Source: Anadara kagoshimensis (lineage: Eukaryota > Mollusca > Bivalvia > Arcoida > Arcidae). Taken from it: DNA of 64,000 nt. Location of the stretch: contig CM037869.1 in NCBI GenBank assembly GCA_021292105.1, forward strand, positions 44,476,990 through 44,540,989, given 5' to 3'. The notes beneath the pieces were generated by a model that was given only the letters and a program-made list of their open reading frames with translations, was not told the origin of the DNA and did no database searches. Positions 340 through 46,790 of this stretch are shown piece by piece; position 1 is the first letter of the stretch; each line of letters begins with the position of its first letter. Position numbers and translations under genes: made by a program.

Positions 340-690
340 AATCATTACCAAATTACATATTATACCAGTTTTAATTTTACAGCACTAGACGGCCGTTTCG
401 GAATACAATTCCTCATCAGTAGTGCTTGGACCAAAATTATGAAACCAAAATTATTTTGAAGATGTGGAAAAGCTACCCAAAGGACCAAAATATATTTTAC
501 CAAATTAAGCTAAGGAAATACTTTGCATGAGGGAGTATACCTTAGTTTTTGAGAAATTTCAAATTTTAACTTGCAGGAAATTTAGACAATTATAGTATAT
601 TTCTGACAATAATACGAAATTATTGCCTACTGAGTTGGTGATATCCTCGGGGCACCAGCCACCAGCAGAGATATCGGCTCAAAAACAGGC
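340..690 (-). mobile_element. R3 repeat copy 1 (hammerhead-bearing)
   Basis: Shares long similarity with 46330-46790 (opposite orientation) and 19990-20235: the ribozyme, the stretch after it (TGTAAAATTAAAACTGGTAT-like) and, on the other side, an AATTTTGGTTTCATAA-like and TATACTCCCTCATG-like region ending near the ccgaggatatc box at 642-658. No reverse transcriptase frame remains. Best guess is the end of a Penelope-like or retrozyme element. Confidence 0.65.
381..426 (-). ncRNA. Hammerhead ribozyme, complete minimal core (in repeat R3)
   Basis: On the minus strand, in order: stem I strand AGCACTA (426-420), core CTGATGAG (419-412), stem II GAAT-TGT-ATTC (411-401), core CGAAAC (400-395), tiny stem III loop GGCC (394-391), cleavage triplet GTC (390-388), stem I strand TAGTGCT (387-381). 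All invariant hammerhead nucleotides are present, stem I is a perfect 7 bp and stem II is 5 bp counting the flanking G-C. Predicted cleavage lies between 388 and 387. The very short stem III is the form known from Penelope-like elements and retrozymes, which act as dimers or concatemers. Confidence 0.85.
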
Positions 691-12298: not shown

Positions 12299-13250
12299 AT
12301 GGACCGAGATGAGCTCCCGATTTGGCGCAGATTCGTTAACTTTATGTTAACTTTGATCGGCCTACGTTCGGCTGCCAAATGGCCGAGTTGTAGACAGCTA
12401 GTGAACAAAAACGATAAAAACCTATCAAAGTTTGATATTGAGCTTAAAAATGAACCGCAGTTCGGCTATCGAGCTATCGATATGTTGATAGGTAGTGAAC
12501 GAATACAGTATAGACCTGCCAAAAGTTTACATCGAGCTAACGAAAAAAGCGCCGAATCTTGTCTGACGAGTGATCAAGATCTGGGTAGCTATTTCTCGAA
12601 TAAGAAAGACCTAGCCTGTCGAAAGTTTACATCGAGCGAACGAAAAAAGAGCCGAAGCTCGTCTGTCGAGTGATAGAGATCTGGGTAGCTATTTCTCGAA
12701 TTAGAAAGACATGTCGAAAGTTTACATCGAGCTAACGAAAAAAGAGCCGAAGCTCGTTTGTCGAGTGATCGAGATCTGGGTAGCTATTTCTCGAATTAGA
12801 AAGACATGTCGAAAGTTTACATCGAGCTAACGAAAAAAGAGCCGAAGCTCGTCTATCGAGTGATAGAGATCTGGGTAGCTATTTCTCGAATAAAAAGACC
12901 TGTCAAAAGTTTACATCGAGGTAACGAAAAAAGAGCCGAAGCTCGTCTGTCGAACGATCGAGATCTGGGTAGTTATTTTTCGAATTAGAAAGACATGTCG
13001 AAAGTTTACATCGAACTAACGAAAAAAGAGCCGAAGCTCGTCTGTCGAGCGATCGAGATCTGGGTAGCTATTTTTCGAATTAGAAAGACATGTCGAAAGT
13101 TTACATCGAGCTAACGAAAAAAAGGAACTGAAGCTCGTCTACCTAGTTGTCGACGTTTGTGTATTTAAAGCTCGAATAAGAAAGACATGTCAAAAGTTTA
13201 CATCGAGATACCAAGAAAGAAGCCGAAATTTGACTGCCAGCTGGTCAAGA
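12299..13250 (+). repeat. Tandem array built from R1
   Basis: About eight units of roughly 93-103 bp from 12510 to 13250; starts of the shared box gtcgaaagtttacatcgagc (some copies caaaag) at about 12520, 12613, 12714, 12807, 12902, 12997, 13091 and 13187. Each unit also has gccgaagctcgtctgtcgag and gatctgggtagctattt. The box is the R1 terminal motif. The 124-codon frame over 12299-12673 and a 60-codon frame downstream are products of this array. 12299-12500 is a related, diverged R1 piece. Confidence 0.85.
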
Positions 13251-18063: not shown

Positions 18064-19448
18064 TTAAAATATCACAACAAATTCACGAGTAAATTTAACA
18101 TTAACTAAAGGATCTGTCACTGTGACTGTCACAATGTCTTTAACGGAAGCTGCAGCACCTGCGACATGTAGTACACAACAATTACATGACGTAACACCAT
18201 AACACGTTGCATAATTTGTGTACTTATCACTTCCTACAATTTTCATGTCTACTTCCGTTACTTTTGATGCGCATGAATAATAAACTTTAACTTCGTAACG
18301 TTGAAGTGGTTTTGGATCCTCGGGTGTGATAGAAAAACTAGTTATTGTCGGATTCGGTCGTGGATCTCTCAAGATTATTTCTTTGTGATATTTCTTATTT
18401 GGAGGCGGAATTATTTCTAAATAGTCATAATCAACAACATAACCATTTGGAAATACTGCAAATGGTGAAAATAAAATGGATCCAGGTATATAGGAATCGT
18501 CTATAAGTTTAACATTATTTGAACATGTTTCGGTAGTTTGTGATTTTAAAGCATGCGAAATTGTTGTACAAAACGATAATACGGTATTAAAGGAATTCTC
18601 ACAAGTTTGTATGACGTCATCAATTTGTGTAGATGACACGCTTTTTACAAAACTAAATGCTTTTCTTATAGATAAACAAAACTTAACTTTATCACAGGAA
18701 AACTTTGTTAAGATTTTTCTACAAGTCCTCTCAACTGTTTCATTGAAACTATCACAAGATGTTTGCACTAGAACTTTGTCATTTTTCACATCATTAGTTG
18801 GAATCTGAATATGAAACAACCCTGGCGTTTTTGTAGATTTTGCCATAAATTCGGCAATCCCCGAATCCTCTTGATTTAACTTGCTTTTCACATGAGCATA
18901 TACATTGGCTGTTTGAACTGGCGAACCACACCTTGTTATTTTTACTGGAACGAAGTATTTGGATTTCTTTGGTAATTGTTTACCTAATGGTTTGGTCACG
19001 TGTTCTCTAGTGGATCTGATTTGACGGTTGCTATGGGAACACATACTCATCCCTGCTAGAAGATGACTTTTGTATAAATTCCAATCTTCCTGTGAAGGAA
19101 ATAGTTCATCCAAGGACGCACACGTGTCAACTTCAATATTCACCTGACCTTGGCCTTCGCTCGTGATGGCTGTCACGTGAACATTACACTTGTCTTTCCA
19201 ATCAAATGTAATATATTCTCCTTTTTGAGAGGAAACAGATTTGATTTTACGTTTTCCATTTAGAAATATGGTCATATTGTTCATATTTTCGTCACGTAAT
19301 CGAAATGTATCCAATGAGCGTATTGTGCCGTCATGGCGTTTCCGGCCATGGACTGTTACAATTTCTCCAGTAGGGAGACGCATTTCCGTTATCCTGGAGT
19401 CACCCGGGTTAACAAACAATTGGTATGTTGGGGCGTTCGTACTGGTAC
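18064..19448 (-). CDS. Gene A terminal coding exon
   Basis: Acceptor tttgtag at 19449; the exon completes an AGT (Ser) codon and runs open for 460 further residues to TAA at 18066-18064. It opens with a T/S/N linker, a beta-rich segment with a basic GRKRHDG turn, a central Cys-rich stretch (pattern RTCRKI..SCDKVKFC.. and later ENSFNTVLSFC), a PPPNKKYHKE turn, and a C-terminal domain with Cys cluster YGVTSCNCC, ending EFVVIF. No transmembrane helix or GPI signal is evident at the end. The open frame is by far the longest in the window. An ATG a few codons upstream in the intron is a shadow start. Confidence 0.9.
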
Positions 19449-22400
19449 CTACAAAGGACAAAAAACACTAATAAGACACTTACTTAACAAAAATCGATTG
19501 GTTTTAAATTCAATCATTCTATTTCGCTTATCACGGCCCTCAAAAAAATTACGGCCGTCATCACTATTAATATTGCTGTCAAGCAAAATGTCTCTGTATC
19601 CAAAATTACTCTGGATATAATGGACGCCCAGTAGTTCCATGCTTCTTTCATACTCAATTTTGATTTCACTCGTGGCGGGTGTAGGTAGCTAGACAGGAAA
19701 CTTACGCTTCCGGAGCATCCGGCCTCATTTCCCTAGTTTGCCAGTTTTCCAAGTCAAACTGTACTTTTGGGGATTGTGGTTTGTACAGGACTGAAATGTT
19801 TCTCTTTTTTATTTATCTAGGTTGCCAGTTAAAATATTGAGGAAACCGAAATTTTTGTATAAAATCCATCAACTTTTGGCAAGTGAAATGGCCAACTTTT
19901 GTAACTCTATGATCTAGGCGTTGAAAAGCAAAGCGACCTGTGAGTCAAGGCTAAACACTATTGTTGTATTTTAACGTTTTTATTGAATTTTCTGAATGTA
20001 ATATTAAATTACATATTATACAAGTCTTAATTATACAGCACTGGACGGCCGTTTCGGAATACAGTTCCCCGCCAGTAGTGCTTACACAAAAATTATGAAA
20101 ACAAAATTGTTTTCAAGATGTTGAAAAGATCTCAAAGGGGCAAAATATATGTTACAAAATTTATCTAAGAAAATACTTTGTAAGAGTATACCTTAGTTTT
20201 TTTTAGGAATTTAAAATTTTAACTAGCTACAAAATATGGCACTATTTTGCCACCAAATCTGGAAGAACATTGAAAGAAGTTTGATATACATGACAGGCAA
20301 TGCAAGAAACAAGTGATAAATCAACATAATTTCATAGGTATGTTAATGTACATCCACTTACTACAATTTCCTTTGAGTCCTCTGAAACAGGTACACTCGT
20401 TTCCAGGGCCACATACGCCATTTCCATGACAACACGACTTGCAACCTAAAATGTAATCAAACTTAGTTTATATTTCTCCAGTAAAAACTGCCTTTATGAT
20501 TAAATATTTGTTGTAACATTTACAAGCTTTGTCAGTATTTCATTTATTTTGTTACATTTTAAAACTTCCTTCTTTTCTGCATTTTAGGTCTGGGAAATTT
20601 TAAATTACAGTTTTTCATATGTACATGAACAATGTATGACTCCGGAAAATTAAGTTCTAAAATAAACACCCAACTACATAATGGCATGCTTGTAATCGCT
20701 AGGATCATCATTGTTCAAATGTGTTATATTGTGAACAAAATCTAAAAGTTTTGTATTGGATAGTGATTGAAATCACTGCATCCAACTGAAATAATTTCTT
20801 TCATTATAAATCCTACCGACACAATTAAATAAATGATACAGAAAACTGGAATGAATGATAATAAAACTAACAACAACAATAGAAAAACCAAAAAAAAAAA
20901 AAAAATAAATAATAAATAAGCAAAATTTAAAATGAGAGAGAAATTTGAGATCATACTGTCTCATCTCAGAGAGGTTAACTATTTGAATGGTCTCATTTTC
21001 GCTCTTGTTTCTTAACCATATTTAATAAAAGGGAAATGTATAGTGAAGAATAATGAACTAATTATAAAAATTGTCTTCTAACTTCGAATAACACCATTCT
21101 AAATTCTAATATCCACAAATTTTAATAATAGTTTCGTGTCCATTTCAAAGTAATGAAATGTACCAAACAAGTTCATGTCAGACCGTTTTTACACACAGAA
21201 ACAGAAGCTCGAAATCAAAACTAGAACATCTCTTGAGAACCAAACACCCCCCACCCACCCCCCAGCCCCAATATCTACAACAGTTTAATTTTTCCGCGAC
21301 CTTTCCTATATGACCTTGGTTTAAGGTCATAACACACCTTTGTATCATGAAGATTATTCATGTGAAGTTTAATGACAGTCGTCCAAAGCAATCATGAGAT
21401 ATGGCCTGGACACGATTTGCCATGGACAGACAGACGTACATGTACGTACGTACGTACGGACGGACGGACAGACATACATACAAGGTGATTCCTATATACA
21501 TGTACTATAGTCAAACTAGGTTGCGTGGGTTTAATCAATTTAAACTTTATTATGAAGAGTCTGAGAGGCGGTCAGCCTATATACACGTAGCTAACATAAC
21601 TGGAGGGTCACAAAATCATGACAGGTAACAAACATTTTTACCTACCTTTTTCTAGATACGCATTATTTGATGACGTTTTACAAGATGGTGTTATTTTGGT
21701 ATATTGTAACATATCTCGGTCGACTGTGATGTTTCCATTTTCCATATACAATTCCATGCCATGTAATGTTATATTCCTTAAAAAGATAAAGCGCAATAAC
21801 TCTGATTACCTTATTACAAAATAAAACAGTTAAAGGGCAAAAACTCTGATTGACTTATTACAACATAAAAAGTTAAAAGGGAGATAACTCTGATTGGCTT
21901 AATACAATATATTCAGAACCTTGCTAAAAATGTACGTCGAAGCAATACGAATGTCAGTAGTCGTCTCCGGGCACTCAGTTTTCCTCTACCGACACGGTCT
22001 AACCGTAGATTGAAGTAATGGAGTTTAAGGTTCCAGTAAAGATATTGAGGGGGTCAGTTTAGGAGAAAACCTCAGTACCCAGACAAACCTACAGATCTTC
22101 GTCAAGCGAAATTCTTAACTTTCTCATACCAAGATTTGTCTGAATAGGATTCGAACCTAGGCAGTTAGAGGCGCTGTGATCCACTGCCACAAACGTTAGA
22201 CCACTTGGTCACCGAGCCCCATCCCCTTCATATACATGTATGAAAAAGAATCGCAACCAGGAAACCACTGCGGTAGATCAGTTGGTAGAGTGCTAGCTCC
22301 GTAAGTGGGGGGTCGTGGGTTCGAACCCCGACCGAGTCTGATCCAAGACTTGAAAGTGGGTAGTGGTTGTTCTTTCGCCAAGCACTGGGCATTACGAAAT

Positions 22401-25400: not shown

Positions 25401-25424
25401 AAATTAACGTCCCTGGGTGGGCTC

Positions 25425-25468
<44 letters not shown>

Positions 25469-26124
25469 TGCGCCACAGAGACCCATGTCCCATGGCAAAG
25501 TTAATAATGTCAAAGAACGTTGTACAGGTAAGTAATCAGACCTATTACAGGTAAGTAATGACTTAACCTAAGTAACGGCTTAATGTCATCATTTATTTAG
25601 GTTTCACAAATAAAATATTTTAATGTTGTATAATAGTATTGACAATTTAACACATTTCTTTCAGCTTTTTTAAGAAATGCATTTATTTATTGTTTTAGGT
25701 GTCTCATAAGCCATTTATGACTGGGTGTTAATATTTTGTGTATAGGCAAACAACTTTGACCTGTCCGTTTGACCTTTCGTTTAAATATTCATTATGGAAG
25801 AGTAAATTTCAGTAATAGGAATCAAGCGTGTATATTTCGTTTATATGTTGTGAACACTAATCATAAACGTTAACAATGTGTTTATGTATTAACTGCGAAT
25901 CCTACCGCTACCCATGTATTGGGTGGACCCTCCCTTTATGAATATTCGCAATGAAAGGTCAAACGGACAGGTCAGTGTTGTTTTGCCTATACAATTTATT
26001 TGATGAATGTATGCTTTTTTTCTAATCCATTGGTATATTGTCATGTGAAACAATAAAACAGTATTATGACCCACGAGACACTAAATAAACAAGTAAATTC
26101 AGTGAATTGGGATTCCACGCCAGC

Positions 26125-29639: not shown

Positions 29640-30545
29640 TGCCCGAATCACAATCCAGAAGCAACATAAAAGCTTGGAAACTGACAAGTTAGGTTAAGCA
29701 TGTGAAATGCCCCCCCCCCCCACCCCCACCCCCCCCCCCCCAGGGAAGTGAGGCCGGGTGCTCCGGAAGGGTAAAAATCTTGCTACACGGTACAGGTCTG
29801 TGTGATTCTAAAGTAGCACATGAAAGAACAACTTCCATGAGGGAAGTGAGACCGGATGCTCCGGATGGGTAAAGAATCTTGCTACACGGTACAGGTCTGT
29901 GTAATTCTAAAGTAGCACATGAAAGAACAACTTCCATGAGGGAAGTGAGACCGGATGCTCCGGATGGGTAAAAAATCTTGCTACACGGTACAGGTCTGTG
30001 TACTAGTAATTCTAAAGTAGCACATGAAAGAACAACTTTCACTAGGGAGGTGAGGCTGGGTGTTCCGGAAGGGTAAGAAAATCTTGCTAAACAGTGCAGG
30101 TCTGTTTAATTCAAAACTAGCACATGAAAGAACAAATTCCACCAATGAGTGAGGCCGGGTGTTCCAGAAGGTTAAAAAAATCTTGCTACACGGTACATGT
30201 CTGTGTTATTCTAAAGTAGCACATGAAAAGAACAAATTCCACCAGGGAAGTGAGGCCGGGTTCTCCGGAAGGGTAAAAAATCTTGCTACACGGTACAGGT
30301 CTGTGTAATTCAAAACTAGCACATGAAAGAACAACTTCCACCAATGAGTGAGGCCAGGTTCTACTGAAGGATAAAAAAATTCTTGCGACACAGTACAGGT
30401 CTGTATAATTCAAAAATACACATAAAAGAACAACTTCCACAAGGGAAGTGAGGCCGGGTTCTCCGGAAGGGTAAAAAATCTTGCTACGCGGTACAGGTCT
30501 GTGTAATTCAAAACTATCACATTAAAGAACAACAATACAAATCGT
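29640..30545 (+). repeat. R4 head followed by ~100-bp tandem array
   Basis: R4-like sequence (gcccgaatcacaatccagaa) at 29640-29700, a C-rich run, then about eight units of 97-105 bp whose shared box (ggaagtgaggccgggtgctc and variants) recurs at about 29744, 29842, 29941, 30046, 30147, 30246, 30347 and 30444. Each unit also carries cttgctacacggtacaggtc and aaagtagcacatgaaagaac. The open frames here on the minus strand are repeat translations. Confidence 0.85.
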
Positions 30546-31038: not shown

Positions 31039-31253
31039 GTCATGTAATTGACGTATCGCCGGCCACGCCCACAATGTACCGACACTGGCCGGCATTACGG
31101 TACCAAAGCAGCGTCACGGCTACTTATGATGTTTTAGTGTCAGTGACGTCATTAAACCGCACAATTCAGGTCGAGTTTTCATTCTTTTGCGTGTAATTCA
31201 AGCATGTCGACCCTTTGTCGGAACATAGGGGGCGTAGCCGGCGATCCGTCAAT
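31039..31253. mobile_element. TIR MITE, GCCGGC family, copy 2
   Basis: Inverted termini attgacgtatcgccggcc and ggcgatccgtcaat, about 30 bp long. The interior matches 801-1008 (ccaaagcagcgtca, gtgtcagtgacgtca, attcaagcatgtcg). Confidence 0.75.
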
Positions 31254-31689
31254 TTGACGTAACGTCGCATACTGTTTCATGTAAGTATGATCTCAAGATT
31301 GGATTGTTCATCTGTTTCGATATGTGTAAAAGACTCAAATTTGATCTAAAACACTAATATCCCCATTCCTTTACAGATTTAATGCATGTTTTTAGTTTTT
31401 ACTCAAAACAATAACTTAATTATAAGGCGAAAACACATGGCATAGTTGCCCAGACAAAACGGCAAATGGTGCTTCTTTCTGGCAAACGCCATCGGAAACT
31501 CATTTATATACTATTTTAAAGTGTGATTTTCAAATTACATATGCTGTTTAACTACTTGATTTTTGTATTGTTTCACCGATATTAATTTATTTATTTTATT
31601 GATAGAAATTTTATGCATGATTTATGAAAGGAGAAAAAAATTAATATAAACCTAACTTTAACCCTGATGTATATATTTGTTTCTCTTTT

Positions 31690-45964: not shown

Positions 45965-46790
45965 TATTTAGCCATTGAACAGTCTAGAAAGCGCGTTTAC
46001 AGTACTATTAGTTCCATTTCCGTGCAAAGCAAACTGGATAACGAACATCAGCGCGTGTAATTAGTTTGCGTTTGCTTTGCACGGCAATGGAAGTTATAAA
46101 GCATTATAAAAGTTCAATGCTTATGTTTACATTTCTCATTTTTGAAAATCTTATTTTGGTTTCTAAATCCTGAAATAAATTTAAAACGTTGTCTTGTACA
46201 ACATGTATTTCCAATCGTTGGAACAGCCATTCTTTGACGTCATGACAAAAGCAGGAAAGGAGTGACGTCACTTTAACAAATGTTAATATAGTCCTATAAT
46301 TACATTTGGTCTCAAACAGAGTCTCAAATTTTATCGGTATCTCTGCTGGTGGCTGGTGCCCCGAGGATATCACAAACTCGTGATCAGTATGCAACAATCG
46401 TGTATTATTTTCAGAAATATTCTATTGTCTTAATTTGCTGCTAGTTAAATTTTTTAAATTCCTCAAAAACTAGGGTATACTCCCTCATGAAAAATATTTC
46501 CTTAGCTGATTTTGGTAAAATCTATTTTGGTCCTTTGGTTTTTTTTCAACATCTTTGAAAAAAGTTTTGGTTTCATAATTTTGGTTCAAGCACAAGCTCC
46601 GAAACAGCGCCCATCTCCTAGATATATAGCTCCGTATGTCGCGAGGTAGTCATAGTTGGCCGCAGTTCGGAGCTCGGTTTAAACACTACTGATGAGGAAT
46701 TGTATCCCGAAACTGCCGCCTAGTGCTGTAAAATTAAAACTGGTATAATATGTAATCATAAAATATCACAAATGTAAATATTCAAATATA
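45965..46790 (+). mobile_element. R3/R5 composite repeat copy 3
   Basis: The right part (46330-46790) matches R3 including a decayed ribozyme; the left part (45970-46330) matches the R5 foldback element at 6902-7310 and 49967-50290. About 90 bp (46595-46681) with no equivalent in copy 1 are inserted just 5' of the ribozyme. Confidence 0.6.
46682..46727 (+). pseudogene. Decayed hammerhead ribozyme (R3 copy 3)
   Basis: Core CTGATGAG and CGAAAC intact, but the cleavage triplet is GCC rather than GTC, which breaks the A15.1-U16.1 pair, stem II has one mismatch (GAAT / ATCC) and stem I one (AACACTA / TAGTGCT). Expected inactive or very weak. Confidence 0.75.

Follow-up and report, generated by a model that had tools for sequence, protein, structure and literature searches.

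A high-copy hammerhead element of Anadara kagoshimensis with a fixed 3' end and homogeneous tandem arrays: a probable non-LTR retrozyme

The non-LTR retrozymes of animals are described as having type I hammerhead ribozymes, units of about 170-400 nt (about 150-450 bp as a class criterion) arranged as tandem dimers to multimers, and abundant circular RNAs; Mytilus galloprovincialis carries about 5000 hammerhead copies in repeats of 350-390 bp (PMC7229834). Circular templates and multimeric cDNA have been proposed to explain their mobility, and no shared motif that points to a partner was found (PMC7761336, PMC7229834). The LTR retrozymes of plants are also non-coding and hammerhead-bearing, with circular RNA as the proposed intermediate (PMC4918200); their ribozyme is of type III and they possess LTRs, a PBS and a PPT (PMC7229834). 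A further system of interest is Poseidon, a Penelope-like element of Anolis carolinensis, for which reverse transcription in vitro starts inside the RNA, downstream of the hammerhead, at ATT-type cuts. Two adjacent start sites are reported, the internal start explains the 'tail' of genomic copies, and ribozyme mutants still inserted in vitro (PMC11167929).

We examined a stretch of 64,000 nucleotides from Anadara kagoshimensis (hereafter the window), near the beginning of which lies a copy of a repeat with a 339-nt unit. This element resembles the metazoan non-LTR retrozymes (PMC7229834) in its type I hammerhead with a complete core, which here has a sub-gathering Rfam score, in its units, which are non-coding, rich in AT and a few hundred bp long (GC below 50%; 0.342 for the 339-nt unit), and in its occurrence at high copy as one to many tandem units with no LTRs seen. 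It differs in its unit of 339 bp and in a fixed 3' end, a feature undescribed in the available text of PMC7229834. Target duplications, which exceed 4 bp in the known elements when present, are represented here by an excess of short ones, one case of about 42 nt and many loci with none. With the plant LTR retrozymes it shares the hammerhead, the non-coding unit and a proposed circular RNA intermediate, but it has the type I ribozyme and no LTRs seen. The likeness to Poseidon (PMC11167929), which is one of described features, consists of a hammerhead upstream of the genomic 3' end, a putative internal start downstream of the ribozyme, an AT-rich (ATT) target, and partial tandems with 5' truncation (the latter also in PMC3846280). 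Unlike Poseidon, the element has no ORF, a unit of just 339 nt and arrays of many laps, and about 37 nt separate the cut from its apparent start downstream, compared with about 85-92 nt for the commonest Poseidon start (from +26 and +111 to +118, PMC11167929). Placed by these described features, the element is best regarded as a new family of metazoan non-LTR retrozymes, one for which the evidence on mechanism is unusually clear.

The ribozyme is located on the minus strand at 381-426, where a sequence-only reading of the window had placed a hammerhead with all invariant core bases; base-by-base reading and the genomic copies both confirm it. Stem I pairs 426-420 with 387-381 (7/7 pairs) and is followed by the core CTGATGA (419-413), by stem II (412-408 with 404-400, five pairs closed by the loop TGT), by GAA at 399-397, and by A15.1 at 396, T16.1 at 389 and C17 at 388. 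The perfect 7-bp stem I and the TGT loop of that reading were therefore both found, and its short stem III of about two pairs corresponds to two to three pairs within the palindrome ACGGCCGT. Since C17 falls at 388, cleavage is predicted between 388 and 387, the same position as was proposed from the letters of the sequence.

When 350-460 was scanned alone, the Rfam model RF00163 (Hammerhead_1) matched 382-425 on the minus strand over the complete model, with 28.1 bits and an E value of 1.7e-5. The sequence-only reading had offered a covariance-model search as a check and the lack of a hit above threshold as a refutation; as the score is below the gathering score of 34, that refuting condition formally holds, but the evidence from copies outweighs it. 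No hammerhead reached the gathering score anywhere in the 64-kb window, and a scan of 1-2000 with E values up to 10 listed none, a shorter stretch being needed for the match. The identical 46 nt in another locus (L020) scored just 17.9 bits in a 901-nt scan, again below 34, so the Rfam score varies with the stretch that is scanned. Rescaled to the 64-kb window and one family, by arithmetic that ignores filters, the E value is about 2e-6, and a search for the 46-nt motif string with up to three mismatches gave a single hit in the window and no hits in 100 shuffles. Folding energies were weak indicators, with a z-score of -1.63 for the motif (16 of 200 shuffles folded equally well) and a predicted energy of the circle that was not unusual (16 of 100 shuffles were equally low). 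In the full unit, whether linear or circular, the minimum-energy fold swaps stem III for other pairs, and forcing the hammerhead costs +4.5 kcal/mol. A whole-genome Hammerhead_1 search with E values up to 0.001 yielded no match among the 73 scored of 112,716 candidates, although copies exist, and is therefore uninformative.

We accept the hammerhead as real mainly because of its genomic copies. The window and 91 fetched loci contained 182 hits that cover the motif, representing 76 distinct sequences; each array unit is counted in this figure, and a few loci are duplicated or contain the window copies. The motif was identical to that of the window in 78 of the 182 hits, and the core and all stem pairs were intact in 111. 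No compensatory double changes were observed in the stems among the 182 hits, variation being one-sided or pair-breaking.

The DNA around the hammerhead, previously described as otherwise unannotatable, proved to be the element itself. Alignment to the unit, whose position 1 is the first base 3' of the cut site, places copy A (locus L048) at 350-681 on the minus strand; it is 332 nt long, or 0.98 of a unit, runs from unit position 46 round to 38, and differs from the family majority at one position. Its 3' tail (unit 1-38), which begins at the cut site and stops at the fixed 3' end defined by the array ends and the 37-nt genome string described below, occupies 350-387 on the minus strand. Its 5' part, at 640-681 on the same strand, is near-identical in copy C and contains a potential hairpin GATATC ... 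GATATC that is paired in the predicted fold. No stop-to-stop frame of at least 110 aa was listed over 350-681, frames at the window edge being unlisted. Comparison of the window with itself identified two older copies, copy B at 20004-20246 on the minus strand (5'-truncated, unit 136-40, 82.7% identity) and copy C at 46335-46756 on the plus strand (84% to copy A over the body). Both are predicted to be inactive, the core having been altered to CTGGCGG in copy B and position 16.1 to C in the copy C ribozyme (46682-46727). A scan of 46660-46760 gave no Hammerhead_1 match with E values up to 1, and its sole match was Hammerhead_3 at 17.6 bits against a gathering score of 48.5. Copy C is also split at the foot of stem I by about 88 nt of inserted sequence (46593-46680, plus strand, from the alignment with limits set by eye), whose inverted ends are imperfect. 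As a single unit with one hammerhead, copy A cannot alone release a unit by double cleavage; unlike it, multi-unit loci elsewhere in the genome could.

Several other features were recorded in the window. A repeat about 215 bp long, with inverted ends of 35 nt, is present at 800-1015, close to copy A, and at 31046-31260; its two copies are 84% identical, and it looks like a small inverted-repeat DNA transposon. Tandem arrays occur at 12522-13227 (period about 95 nt), with weak matches of about 72-86% to parts of 1220-1420, and at 29740-30533 (period about 99 nt). There is a tRNA gene at 25408-25482 on the minus strand (64.2 bits) and an ORF of 467 codons at 18064-19467, also on the minus strand, with no Pfam or PDB match. 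No convincing family was obtained for the ORFs of the window, of which 10 of 17 were scanned with one sub-threshold Pfam match, and one was compared with the PDB with no match.

The genome that contains the window comprises 1,115 Mb in 36 contigs. Nineteen of these are chromosome-sized (18 at 38-76 Mb, and contig C17 at no less than 58 Mb), compared with the 14 chromosomes of Mytilus. A search with copy A returned 807 candidates, and the 40 that were scored gave at least 106 matches in 40 loci, many of them 339 nt apart; searches with copy B and with the body of copy C returned 4,348 and 5,460 first-look candidates, respectively (40 scored in each). The repeat unit is 339 nt, arranged head-to-tail with one hammerhead per unit. 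The genome contains 2,228 exact occurrences of the 37-nt string between the cut site and the 3' terminus of the element and 6,691 of its last 18 nt, with no occurrence of either reversed control. Viral contigs gave no matches for two element strings, and there was no sign of a second hammerhead family with a C-G second pair in stem II (two genome matches versus one for the reversed control).

Three samples of loci were oriented and aligned to a tandem reference. The first consisted of 40 loci (L009-L048) picked by similarity to a near-full unit, a choice that excludes short copies; 20 of the 40 have more than 1.5 units, the longest has 11.5, and 37 remain when L023, L033 and L043, which look like duplicates of other loci, are set aside. 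The second consisted of 30 loci found with the old copy B, copy B itself included. The third was drawn from the first 100 tail sites on contig 1, one site in five being taken, which gave 20 loci chosen by the 3' motif. In 18 of them the site lies within, or terminates, a copy that includes element body; it is internal in L088, L100 and L107, while L090 has 38 nt of the element and L095 the tail string only. The catalytic core was not clearly more conserved than the rest of the element in 24 old pieces, where substitutions amounted to 0.120 in the core, 0.113 in the whole ribozyme, 0.127 in the tail, 0.139-0.162 in the body, 0.203 in the 5' hairpin region and 0.250 at unit 39-45. The earlier suggestion of an active or recently active circular-RNA or retroelement lineage, made with reference to retrozymes and Penelope-like elements, is upheld in that this is a young, high-copy element with tandem 339-nt ribozyme units, with presumed circular RNA and self-cleavage.

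In all 40 loci of the first sample, the main array ended at unit 36-44, most often at 37, directly after GGTATAATATGTAAT(T); endings past unit 38 look mostly like chance agreement with the flank. Over the three samples, both ends could be seen in 87 of 90 loci (L088 and L107 extend to the edge of the fetched sequence, and L095 gave no hit), and 79 of the 87 ended at unit 36-45, with a mode of 37 in 31 loci, an agreement that is partly built in for the contig-1 loci because they were chosen by the 3' motif. The eight others ended at unit 19, 24, 30, 47, 48, 106, 297 and 297. Every array unit carries the 3' motif, yet only the last unit ends there. The 5' ends were spread over unit 1-337, and copies ranged in length from 0.95 to 11.5 units in the first sample and from 0.11 to 11.5 over all three. 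Since copies that end at unit 37 reach upstream past unit 1, their template must have been joined across the cut site, and since a ribozyme-cut linear RNA would span unit 1-339, the fixed end at 37 does not coincide with the terminus of such an RNA.

The distribution of 5' ends was assessed in the 75 unique loci that share the 3' end. Eight of them (L009, L028, L038, L045, L046, L047, L058 and L059, about 1.1 or 2.1 units long) begin at unit 1-12 compared with 2.7 expected (p 0.005), and 19 begin within or just after the hammerhead compared with 10.8 expected (p 0.009), both intervals having been chosen afterwards. The excess at unit 1-12 suggests that some templates were ribozyme-cut circles or linear RNAs starting at the cut, and an excess so near the cut site complicates a pure circle model.

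Variation within arrays was tallied in the 37 loci at sites covered by at least two units, with positions 36-44 omitted. Substitutions were present in all units in 39 cases, in one unit in 83 and at intermediate frequency in one; for deletions the corresponding counts were 2, 26 and 2. Eight substitution variants found in three or more loci gave 22 variant-by-array cases in all units and three mixed cases (two variants, three units each), where some of the variants are linked and the 25 cases are thus not all independent. When units were dealt out randomly, site by site, in 1000 permutations, the means were 2.4 all-unit and 58.7 mixed cases, and the fewest mixed was 45. Divergence was 0.33% within and 1.87% between arrays (15 loci with at least two full units). 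These all-or-none variants and the low divergence within arrays indicate that each array mostly descends from one unit, which fits a prediction of rolling reverse transcription of a single circle. In addition, the array at L015 interrupts an old copy of the same retrozyme family, which supports its insertion as a unit.

All-or-one variation could also arise from uncleaved linear multimers of homogeneous arrays. According to this explanation, what is copied is a linear multimer, transcribed from an array already present and cleaved partly or not at all; the ribozyme would be weak or have an incidental role, and the 3' end would result from internal initiation, which would suffice to fix it. The slight surplus of copies beginning at unit 1-12 fits RNAs that start at one cut and are joined at the next, the hammerhead differs from the minimum-energy fold, and the insertion of Poseidon ribozyme mutants (PMC11167929) cautions against assuming that cleavage is required. 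Nevertheless, we consider this explanation unlikely, as it requires pre-existing arrays as well as intact hammerheads that were left uncut. Moreover, no two independent arrays share more than one mixed variant, single ones being shared (e.g., at positions 95, 96, 102, 160 and 339), and some variants that are fixed throughout one array recur in a single unit of a different array (positions 33, 153 and 165), as expected if one unit circularises; recurrent mutation is possible under both explanations.

Template jumping, in which ribozyme-cut linear RNAs of unit length are copied successively into head-to-tail arrays, would likewise produce tandem units joined at the cut site. However, copying should then start from unit 339, the 3' terminus of the cut molecule, where none of the 40 arrays ends, and neighbouring units should mix lineage variants, which was the case in 3 of 25 variant-by-array cases. 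We therefore judge it very improbable. Even less weight can be given to ordinary satellite DNA formed by unequal crossing-over around a fossil ribozyme: tandem units are present and homogeneous within arrays, but the short arrays and single copies are dispersed among unrelated flanks and share a 3' end, their 5' ends being scattered, and only one substitution and two deletions are at intermediate frequency within arrays. Chance resemblance to a hammerhead is equally hard to credit, since the sub-threshold Rfam score and the modest z-score are set against a core and stems intact in most motif-covering hits, a cut site at a constant distance from the common 3' end, and the low rescaled E value.

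Other identities for the element were also considered. A satellite was rejected because long arrays without common insertion ends would be expected, whereas the copies are dispersed with one common 3' end, and a SINE because the 3' ends have no common repeat tail. No tRNA-, 5S- or 7SL-like head was matched by Rfam in 1-2000, which is a weak test as the identical scan missed the hammerhead. The retrozyme is not itself a Penelope-like element, its 339-nt unit having no RT or GIY-YIG ORF.

Insertion sites were compared with permuted flanks. At offset 1, target duplications of 4 nt or more were present in 21 of 75 unique loci, compared with a permuted mean of 9.7 and a maximum of 16; six of the 16 offset/length combinations exceeded the maximum of 200 permutations and 10 did not. 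L024 is exceptional, with duplicated flanks of about 42 nt that differ by one mismatch and greatly exceed those at other insertions, and many loci are without any target duplication. The 3' ends have no common A-rich or simple-repeat tail and pass directly into unrelated flank; many LINE-driven copies have a tail of this kind. In most loci the ATT target motif is inseparable from the next letters of the element itself.

The same genome contains at least 50 GIY-YIG matches (150 of 248 candidates scored). Among three Penelope-like ORFs tested against Pfam, two contained both RVT_1 and GIY-YIG, and the third GIY-YIG alone. Nine Penelope-like loci, which cover 10 of the 50 matches and of which six are about 3 kb each, were scanned for hammerheads; none was convincing, with weak patterns in L084 and L087, and the same scanner recovered the ribozyme from 39 of the 40 retrozyme loci. 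Similarly, no hammerhead match with E values up to 5 was found in L079-L081, and with E values up to 0.01 the sharing between the retrozyme unit and the nine loci was limited to one old copy of the retrozyme, in L081. L079 (1739-2376/5223-5851) and L081 (1-975/1977-2951) also contain long inverted repeats with 96-99% complementarity, and L080 has direct repeats about 2.7 kb apart. The apparent internal start and the short target duplications are reminiscent of Penelope-like elements, and by analogy with Poseidon a Penelope-like element is a plausible mobilising partner.

The genomic copies demonstrate a fixed apparent start and a single-unit origin of arrays, and from these two features we infer an RNA circle as the template. 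In the cycle that we propose, multi-unit copies would be transcribed, and hammerheads would cut between the units, perhaps aided by pairing of two palindromic stem III loops, before ligation into a circle of about 339 nt. A trans-acting reverse transcriptase would then start about 37 nt downstream of the cut and ligation junction, at an AT-rich nick, and make from less than one to more than 11 laps round the circle before it stops, with some copies stopping near the cut site. Insertion would occur with short, sometimes no, target duplications, a step supported by the flanks, and the available evidence suggests that the machinery would most likely come from a Penelope-like element. We hold it to be likely that the element is a metazoan non-LTR retrozyme, non-coding and non-autonomous, with a 339-nt unit and with arrays made by copying of an RNA circle. 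More tentatively, at somewhat less than an even chance, animal retrozymes may be circular-RNA 'SINEs' of Penelope-like elements, in which the ribozyme makes the circle, the enzyme starts about 37 nt past the junction, and each array is one multi-lap event of target-primed copying.

In the literature searched, which comprised mostly titles and abstract openings and covered subscription papers thinly, no animal retrozyme arrays were found described with a fixed 3' end, and template and partner are treated there as a model. Relative to that literature, a fixed site of initiation and the descent of arrays from a single unit would be new for animal retrozymes. The genome holds thousands of copies, many of them recent, with one end string, and the loci examined have one apparent start point, different stops and homogeneous laps. 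The circle model thereby becomes testable, with a defined initiation site, and a fixed 3' end near the hammerhead cut site together with all-or-none variants may provide a genomic signature to look for in other animals.
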